A DNA stretch of 64,000 nucleotides from Thelephora terrestris (lineage: Eukaryota; Basidiomycota; Agaricomycetes; Thelephorales; Thelephoraceae): the NCBI GenBank assembly GCA_015956445.1, contig WIUZ02000001.1:2790001-2854000 (forward strand). Reading direction: 5' to 3'. Positions 52,170 to 54,503 of the stretch are shown piece after piece. The translations under genes and the position numbers were made by a program. The notes under the pieces are model-generated. The model was not told where the DNA came from. It made no database searches and saw only the letters and a program-made list of their open reading frames with translations. Each line of letters opens with the position of its first letter. The stretch's first letter is position 1.

Positions 52170-53230
52170 TCAAAAAACTGACTCGGCCAAATCCCAACCG
52201 GACAAAGGGAGATCCAGGCTGGGGGAAAAATCGAATTGTTCCTGGTCAAATTGAACATCAGGAATCATGCTCAACAGTCTCCGTAAATCTTCTCCGTCCA
52301 GTGCGTTACCGGGCATCACCGCCGCCGAGAAGGATGTCGGCGGGATTTCTGTAACTTTGGAATCTGGGGAGAAAACTTCGAAATGGAGAGACGTAGTTGG
52401 TGATGAAGGTGAGGGGGCAATGATCTCCCGCAATAATTCCTCCATGGCGCTATCGCTGACCGGTTTCGATGTCGAGTCGTCGGCGGCAGTCGTCGCCGCT
52501 GGAGATGATGGAGTGGTGTTGAGTTCGGTGGTATGATGATTCGCTGCGAGTCCACCCGCTGCTGGGACGTCGGGGTGAGTTGGGCACCTGATTCGACGGT
52601 CGCCACCCGTGCTAGGTGGCAAGTGGACTCGAACTCCTCAAAAATATTCGAACTCGGGAGTGATGAGGTTGAAGTAGCTGGAGAAATGGGGTAGGCGGCT
52701 GGGAGTGGGGGTACGATGGTAGGAAGAGAGCCAGCGCATGAGGTGGATGGGGGAGCAGGGGAGTCAGTGGAGACACAAGGCGGGACTTGGATGTTAAGTG
52801 GGAGGCCAGAAGCCTGTAAAGCCTTGATGACGGCCGTCCATCCACTCTCCAGACTCTTGATCCTATCCCTGAGCTCTCTGTTCTCGCGAGCCTGTACAGA
52901 TTCTCTCTCGAGGCTGACGGATTTGTTGTCGGCGGAGGTAAATTGGGAGAGACTCATGCCTGCTCGCAGTAGGTGGTTTTCTTGCTCCAACTCTGCCACG
53001 CGCTTCTCCAGGTGAGCGAAATGGGCTTTGCGCTTGTCGCGGGAGTTTTGGGCCGCGATCCGGTTACGGTGAGCCCTGGCGTCTCGTCGCTGTTCAGGAG
53101 TGAGATCAGTCCTGGCCCGTTTACGTGGAGGTTCTACGATAGCAGAATCATCTCGGGTAGATGTTGGACGGACTGCGGCAGACGATGATTCGGAAGGAGA
53201 AGGTGAAGAGAAGGCTGAGGTGGAAGACAT
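52170..53230 (-). CDS. HAC1: HAC1/XBP1/CIB1-like bZIP unfolded-protein-response factor
   Basis: Probable master regulator of the ER unfolded protein response. The start at 53230 opens MSSTSAFSSPSPSESSSAAV; the basic region is RDARAHRNRIAAQNSRDKRK and the zipper AHFAHLEKRVAELEQENHLL, with the N-R-x-A-A-Q-x-S-R-D signature of XBP1/HAC1 proteins. Unspliced, the frame runs to a stop at 52316 (304 residues, basic tail). Removal of 50 nt (52611-52562) joins CHLA to AGGLAANHHTTELNTTPSSP in another frame and gives 336 residues ending SLDLPLSGWDLAESVF, an acidic, hydrophobic-patterned activation-like region. The 50-nt segment lacks GT-AG ends but is flanked by IRE1-type hairpins, described separately. 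I therefore give the span to the spliced stop. Lineage peers are Ustilago cib1 and Cryptococcus HXL1, which carry short unconventional introns. Confidence 0.8.
52562..52611 (-). promoter_or_regulatory. Candidate 50-nt unconventional (IRE1-type) intron
   Basis: On the minus strand the 5' hairpin is GCCACC-[TAGCACG]-GGTGGC (52620-52602), six Watson-Crick pairs around a 7-nt loop. The 3' hairpin is CGTCC-[CAGCAGC]-GGGTG (52569-52553), five pairs including two G-U, again with a 7-nt loop. Cutting both loops after position 3 (TAG^CACG and CAG^CAGC) removes exactly 50 nt, and 50 leaves remainder 2 on division by 3, the shift needed to enter the long alternative frame. The 3' loop fits the CNG^NNGN consensus; the 5' loop departs from it at positions 1 and 6. 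No spliceosomal GT-AG pair explains the same frame change. Confidence 0.6.
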
Positions 53231-54503
53231 GATGTGGTTGCGTGGAATCGTATCCTGTGAGATTGGGAGAGCCGTCTGGAACCAAAAAACAAGCTACTTT
53301 TGTAAGGAGGATGATGGATGTGTTGGTCAAAGGAGCGTTGGCCACGCCATCAGCAAACGTGGAACATTTCCCCCCACAGGACATACCAAATATAGCCAAA
53401 CAACCGAAATAGCTGCTGCGGCCACGTCGCACATCAAATAAAGACCAGTCCTACAAGGGCCAAAACCCATCAGCAGGCTCCGATATGCATGACTGAGTGC
53501 GTAACCACCGCCGTTCTGAAACGCTGGAATGATACTGGATCTGGTTAAGTATGACACTGTTGGTATCTTTGATCGGCCACTAACAACAACTCCATGGCCA
53601 TGGCCCTTGGCGAACAGTCGTCGAATTCACTGGCGCATGATGCATGAAAGTCGAGGCAGCGCGCCAGGAACGACTTGATACTAATGTCGGGCGCTGGACA
53701 TATATTTATCTTTGAAGATTAGGCCTTGGTTGCGCCTTTATCTCGCAAGCGACCAGAAAAACATCACCCGCCTATTGCTGTCCTGCAGTGTTTGCAGTGT
53801 TCACTAGCAGTTTCCTAGCGCTCTAGCTCGTCGGCCACTCTGACTCCCGCTGAAAAGTGGTTGAAATCTTTTTCTTGTTGACGAGTAGCAACCTTACTCG
53901 GTGAAGGAGTTGCTCTCTACGTCTTAATAGTCGGAAACGAGCCCGGAGTTTCGGAGCATTCTGGGAAGAGATTCCACTCTCATCTACCAATGGCCCATTT
54001 TCTGTCATCCGACGGGTATTGCGCCTGCATGGACGTCCGTATTTCGATGCAACAATTCACCATGCAATTCGAGACAAACTGCATCGGCGTGCCGCCCCGC
54101 TAGAAACGTCTACTATCTCATCCGATAAACGCTGCAGTGGAAGGCTTCCGAAGGGAGGAATATCATTCTCTCTGATTTATTATAAGACGAGTAGGGTTAA
54201 GTCCCGACCCGTTCTCTGCCACCGTACGGCGAAAAGATACGTCAGGCTGAAACCCCGCTTTGAGTTCGGAGGAGGGAGGGTCTCCGGAATCAGAAACTGC
54301 ATGTGGGTGAACGCCCCTAATCGACAGGAGCTCGATTATAATAAGTTACTTGGCATGGGGGAAAATACCGAGGAGCAATAGATACCGGAAAAAAAAAGAA
54401 ACTTATCCGTTTACCAACACGAGAGAAAACCGGACCACAGTCCGGAGATCCTGAGATGTTCGGCAGGGTCGTCGAATTCCAATGGTAAAAACGGGTGAAC
54501 TTG
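53231..54503. other. Intergenic: bZIP promoter side
   Basis: No gene I can support. An AT-rich TATATTTAT-like element lies near 53700. An ORF at 54019-54381 (+) has no recognisable sequence. Confidence 0.35.

Follow-up and report, generated by a model that had tools for sequence, protein, structure and literature searches.

The locus raises two linked questions: whether the mRNA of a bZIP gene in the basidiomycete Thelephora terrestris carries an intron of the type removed by the RNase IRE1, and how IRE1 would recognize such an intron when one of its two border loops departs from the published rule. The window analysed here is a 64,000-nt stretch of contig WIUZ02000001.1 (assembly GCA_015956445.1, positions 2,790,001 to 2,854,000), and the gene lies on its minus strand; coordinates are those of the window. 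As described for S. cerevisiae, Ire1 requires CNG|(C/A)NGN in a 7-nt loop (PMC8104961; PMC6037481), and the bases at three positions of each loop are described as invariant across organisms from yeast to mammals (PMC4891664). The gene is very probably a HAC1 with an IRE1-type intron of 50 nt, in which both loops would be cut and the exons ligated under ER stress, exchanging a basic tail for a conserved acidic activation tail, and in which the 5′ loop falls outside the rule.

The HAC1 gene and its two frames

According to the ORF list and its translation, a minus-strand ORF at 53230–52316 encodes the unspliced form of 304 residues. When positions 52611–52562 are taken out, translation of the same strand yields a form of 336 residues that ends at 52170. 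Exon 1, comprising the start codon and the bZIP domain up to the 5′ cut (53230–52612, 619 nt), and exon 2 (52561–52170, 392 nt) add up to 1011 nt, or 336 codons plus a stop, and the coordinates, lengths and frames given in a preliminary description of the locus proved exact. With the register AG|CA assumed at both ends, the 50-nt segment begins with CACGG and ends with CCCAG, and therefore lacks GT–AG, as had been claimed. The ORF is without any conventional intron.

Removal of the segment reverses the charge of the C-terminus, in agreement with the earlier statement of an acidic spliced and a basic unspliced form. Beyond the junction, the tail encoded by exon 2 in the spliced frame has a net charge of −15 and is a probable activation domain, while the tail read through the intron and exon 2 to the unspliced stop (52611–52316) has a net charge of +18.

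A Pfam bZIP domain was found at residues 45–90, upstream of the intron, and relatives carry the name X-box-binding protein 1 in UniRef, although only as a name. Among the matches listed, the top named relative came from Thelephora ganbajun (Agaricomycetes, Thelephorales), whose protein shows 72% identity over 95% of the spliced form. The domain and the agaricomycete relatives support the proposed assignment of the gene, from its sequence, as a HAC1/XBP1-type bZIP of an agaricomycete. A search of the PDB with the HAC1 protein returned no matches, and the three matches in an Rfam scan with E up to 10 all fell far under their own gathering scores. The presumed leader, on the minus strand upstream of the HAC1 start codon (window 53231–53500), contains six ATGs, and a search for UPRE-like motifs in the 970 bases upstream of HAC1 yielded just two loose cores, ACGTG or CACGT.

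Conservation of the unspliced peptide, the junction and the spliced tail

Three protein searches gave 434, 5 and 546 matches above thresholds; the best 120 or fewer of each were listed, resulting in 158 distinct proteins. The unspliced frame continued through the 5′ site in 137 of these, including the window's own entry (P0003), with the motif T-[RCH]-[HQ]-[LSP]-A-R, mostly T-R-H-L-A-R. The predicted junction, HLA|AG or QLA|AG, was present exactly in 8 of the 158, and the motif was absent from 13. Many of the homologues are closely related, so these counts do not represent independent events. The unspliced peptide occurs in named species of the Thelephorales, Polyporales, Hymenochaetales, Gloeophyllales, Russulales, Agaricales and Atheliales.

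Three of the junction proteins come from JGI contigs: P0001 (1398 bases), P0028 (1192 bases) and P0077 (1557 bases). A junction-spanning protein on so short a contig would most simply be a spliced cDNA. The other five are gene models, from Trametes elegans, Trametes maxima, Cristinia sonorae, Gelatoporia subvermispora and Mycena floridula. The closest unspliced-frame relatives of the eight (three each) all have [HQ]LAR at that position. Intron lengths could be measured in 88 homologues in the unspliced frame and ranged from 35 to 53 nt, with 47 nt in 37 cases, 50 nt in 33, 44 nt in 12 and other lengths in 6. These lengths were counted as codons plus two, so the fact that they are multiples of three plus two is no separate evidence.

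The frame switch could in principle be made by a spliceosomal intron with unusual ends, or by a nearby GT–AG intron. Many public gene models do use other junctions at the site, such as HLARVATTDAPPGG or HLARLELN, as expected of gene finders that seek GT–AG. However, the exact junction offers no GT–AG in any of its four registers, eight proteins use precisely the predicted junction, and the site lies within conserved loop and stem peptides; we therefore consider a spliceosomal origin very improbable. Other junctions, with intron residues inside, were also seen in the public agaricomycete HAC1 gene models P0002, P0033, P0042, P0043 and others. P0002 was considered as a representative of the spliced form and rejected, because it retains intron residues.

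At E ≤ 1e-3, with the low-complexity filter and the composition correction off, the spliced tail was similar to 62 of 157 listed homologues, and several orders are represented among the named species. Certain C-terminal stretches recur in these tails, for example LDLELxGWDL and a final VF. The unspliced tail matched 50 of the 157, and its post-intron part 46; none of the 157 matched both the spliced and the unspliced tail. Just 8 of the 62 spliced-tail proteins have the exact junction, the others being gene models with different junctions or reads of the second frame.

If there were no splicing, the second frame would be a conserved overlapping ORF, or would be reached by frameshifting or internal initiation. 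This frame is in fact open on its own from 52622, and the 82 codons to the unspliced stop were open by chance in 11% of synonymous shuffles. Nevertheless, fusions exactly at HLA|AG exist among the listed proteins, homologues matching the spliced tail come from several orders, and activation by splicing is described as established for this gene family in Cryptococcus (PMC3154848), making the absence of splicing very improbable as well. The comparison among agaricomycete orthologues, which the preliminary description had proposed as a check, thus found the loop and stem peptides, the frame switch and the junction conserved, with the hairpins followed through loop letters deduced from peptides.

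The border hairpins and the loop rule

Each border had been described as a hairpin with a 7-nt loop, cut after loop position 3. Both loops and stems are present in the predicted structure, as in IRE1-spliced HAC1/XBP1 mRNAs, with a strong 5′ and a weak 3′ stem-loop, but two independent 7-nt hairpins proved too simple a picture. The 5′ hairpin (52600–52622) has arms of eight pairs at 52615–52622 and 52600–52607 around the loop TAGCACG (52608–52614), with the cut between 52612 and 52611; it is the sole 7-nt loop with at least six pairs in the 915-nt ORF. The 3′ hairpin (52553–52569) has arms at 52565–52569 and 52553–52557, with five pairs, two of them G–U, and the loop CAGCAGC (52558–52564), cut between 52562 and 52561. 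In the predicted fold, these hairpins and others within the intron lie inside a junction closed by a helix between exons 1 and 2, in which GAGUCCAC (52630–52623) is paired with GUGGACUC (52555–52548). The exon-1 arm, GAGTCCAC (52623–52630), and the exon-2 arm, GTGGACTC (52548–52555), would bring the two exons together. The 3′ hairpin and the outer helix partly compete, because positions 52553–52555 serve both. The ensemble gave a probability of about 0.97 for the inner 5′ pairs and of about 0.10 for the pairs that close the 3′ hairpin in the 7-nt register. A cut after position 3 does give the exact frame switch, but AGCA is common to both loops, so that four cut registers lead to one product and the cut is ambiguous over these letters.

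Among 2000 synonymous shuffles that kept the unspliced protein, a 5′ stem of this length occurred in 0.7% and a 3′ stem of this length in 1.7%. An equally stable fold was found in 0.8% of 500 synonymous shuffles for a 121-nt stretch and in 4.6% of 500 for a 91-nt stretch. When the 91-nt stretch was shuffled by dinucleotides, its stability was ordinary (z −0.09), with 89 of 200 shuffles folding at least as well, so that fold stability alone proves nothing. The dinucleotide shuffles, the weak 3′ hairpin and the lack, in the 5′ loop, of two bases described as required in yeast (PMC8104961) count against the reading as an IRE1 intron, and we regard the case for it as carried by the comparative evidence.

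There is modest support for the structure beyond its energy. The fourth pair of the outer helix was compatible in 81 of 95 sequences, with a permutation mean of 71.6 and a maximum of 78 in 5000; in this comparison letters were inferred from residues, serine was allowed T or A, and kinship was ignored. The exceptions included P-D (5), T-D (4) and three others without a pair. In all three unspliced-frame sequences with Q for H, L replaces V, which fits a kept pair in the 5′ stem and is perhaps one event.

On contig C17, two near-identical, inverted and decayed HAC1 copies are separated by about 7 kb, near 432074–432571 (+) and 439049–440014 (−). They are 75–79% identical to the gene and have upstream flanks in common. 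Both miss nine bases at the 5′ loop, resulting in the palindrome CGCCACGTGGCG, and in both the end pair of the outer helix is changed on both sides, from G–C to A–T; as the two copies are nearly one sequence, the pair change counts as one event. The copies keep a 3′ loop CTGCAGC, which, in these pseudogenes and in relatives, we take to be the same as the XBP1 3′ loop. The XBP1 5′ loop follows CNG|(C/A)NGN.

In the window, the 3′ loop, CAG|CAGC, fits the rule, as had been stated, and the 5′ loop, UAG|CACG, departs from it. Viral contigs and prokaryote genomes yielded no DNA of the relatives, whose loop letters were deduced from peptides, assuming the register of the window. The peptide alone is decisive here, because letters 1, 3, 4, 6 and 7 of the 5′ loop are fixed by the residues L/S/P, A and R. 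Of the 137 unspliced-frame sequences, 127 have U at position 1, the nine with Ser have C or G there, and the one with Pro has C; at position 6 every sequence has C or A. A canonical 5′ loop is consequently possible in none of the 137, and at the level of the peptide this upholds the proposal that the 5′ loop widens the sequence rules accepted by IRE1. A canonical 3′ loop is possible in 105 of 106 relatives. In Abortiporus biennis (Polyporales), proteins from two frames or annotations, if they belong to one gene, give the letters U-N-G-C-A-C-G followed by GGUGGCG. These deduced letters indicate that the odd 5′ loop is real and common to relatives.

With the 5′ loop outside the rule, the IRE1 of this lineage would either accept C or A at position 6 or mainly read the strong stem and G|C. 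The loop rule was derived from budding yeast and is no absolute requirement in every lineage, S. pombe being an exception (PMC6037481, PMC8104961). The failure of the 5′ loop to follow it would thus weaken the generality of the published rule rather than the HAC1-like working of the gene. We lean towards a reading in which IRE1, throughout the Agaricomycetes, would cut an asymmetric pair of sites. The 3′ loop would be canonical and the 5′ loop would have a derived form, [U/C]NG|CN[C/A]G, which the budding-yeast enzyme would be expected to refuse, so that mushroom IRE1 would have a recognition rule of its own. The derived loop would be locked in by the peptide, because the same letters encode the nearly invariant H-L-A-R-V-A of the unspliced protein.

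It is also conceivable, if rather unlikely, that IRE1 splicing is correct and the 5′ site is read in another way, either as a 5-nt AGCAC loop closed by U–G or with another cut within AGCA, leaving the 7-nt rule unchanged. In the ensemble, the U1–G7 pair of the 5′ loop is mostly formed (U1 and G7 unpaired in only 0.08 and 0.07), so the modelled fold may leave just AGCAC unpaired; the four registers give the same product, and S. pombe Ire1 is described as accepting loops of 3 to 9 (PMC6037481). On the other hand, shifting the register within AGCA never satisfies the known motif at the 5′ and 3′ sites alike, and both sites retain G|C after position 3. Moreover, the first letter of the loop is not U in the nine Ser variants and the Pro variant, where the U–G pair would therefore be lost. 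The asymmetric pair of 7-nt loops accordingly remains the reading that we favor.

IRE1, tRNA ligase and comparison with known systems

A domain search of the genome (40.6 Mb in 60 contigs) identified an IRE1 RNase domain (PF06479) and a fungal tRNA-ligase domain (PF08302), both over cut-off and both on contig C34. A second, frame-broken copy of the IRE1 gene was found on the small contig C28. Positions 1–9000 of C28 repeat the IRE1 region and a neighbour gene of C34 (798500–806500) with many frame breaks, and C28 resembles an allelic assembly contig with many errors rather than a source of a second IRE1. When the genome was searched for the exact hairpin sequence with at most two mismatches, it occurred once, in HAC1 itself, and no further target of this kind came to light.

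When the RNase domain was aligned to yeast IRE1 in the PDB, the host IRE1 had A at yeast position 988, D at 992 and K at 1059. Positions were numbered by counting from the catalytic histidine; as a check, yeast E988, K992 and Y1059 fell on E, K and Y. The A/D/K pattern, which is like that of S. pombe and human, was present in 175 of 230 IRE1s, the human protein included. Such a pattern has been linked to looser specificity, and a yeast double mutant is described as still requiring C at position 1 and G at position 6 (PMC8104961). To judge from these residues, the odd 5′ loop would be compatible with the host IRE1, but is not predicted by it.

We infer that ER stress would activate the transmembrane RNase IRE1, which would then cut the cytoplasmic HAC1 mRNA in the two loops after G3. 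The outer helix between exons 1 and 2 would keep both loops and exons near each other while the tRNA ligase joined the exons, and the loss of 50 nt would swap the basic tail for the conserved acidic tail, presumably an activation domain.

The closest known parallel in kind comes from other basidiomycetes. HXL1 of Cryptococcus neoformans is likewise a bZIP gene, with an unconventional intron after the bZIP domain (56 nt, compared with 50 nt here), border stem-loops and a changed C-terminus, the splicing being Ire1-dependent in HXL1 (PMC3154848). In contrast to the 5′ loop here, G|CAC, its borders are described as CAG at both ends, and HXL1 also has a conventional intron, whereas the ORF here has none (PMC3154848). 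In Ustilago maydis, cib1 is described as a Hac1-like regulator of the same kind, activated when Ire1 removes an unconventional intron (PMC6918084).

S. cerevisiae HAC1 is similar in having two Ire1-cut loops, joining by tRNA ligase and a new C-terminal tail, but both of its loops follow CNG|(C/A)NGN, compared with the 3′ loop only here (PMC8104961, PMC6037481). Its 252-nt intron is reported to pair with the leader and to block translation (PMC6116095), whereas in the present gene the longest leader–intron duplex was 8, which was matched by 93% of shuffled introns and is not above chance. Metazoan XBP1 also has a short intron and a frame shift to an activation domain, but RTCB, instead of a fungal-type ligase, joins its exons (PMC4891664, PMC6037481). 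The decay sites of S. pombe Ire1 are comparable in their relaxed loop recognition, and the host IRE1 shares the A, D, K pattern; S. pombe Ire1 is, however, described as needing UG|C and acting in decay, compared with AG|C and splicing here (PMC6037481, PMC8104961).

Since IRE1-spliced HAC1 was already known in basidiomycetes from HXL1 and cib1, the intron itself is not novel; what is new is that one loop, in this gene and in its relatives, departs from the rule. No paper on an agaricomycete HAC1 intron was found in the literature searched, the scope of which excluded the 2011 survey by Hooks and Griffiths-Jones, so that an earlier report is possible. A conserved loop rule that is broken at one site and can be kept at the other would amount to a naturally occurring test of how IRE1 reads its RNA, whether by sequence, stem strength or loop closure.

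The exact junction also allows mushroom HAC1 gene models to be corrected. In one white-rot genome paper, no clear HAC1 is described as found (PMC4101180). The matches listed here include a HAC1 orthologue, P0095, from Trametes cinnabarina. We take this name to be equivalent to Pycnoporus cinnabarinus, the species of that white-rot genome paper.
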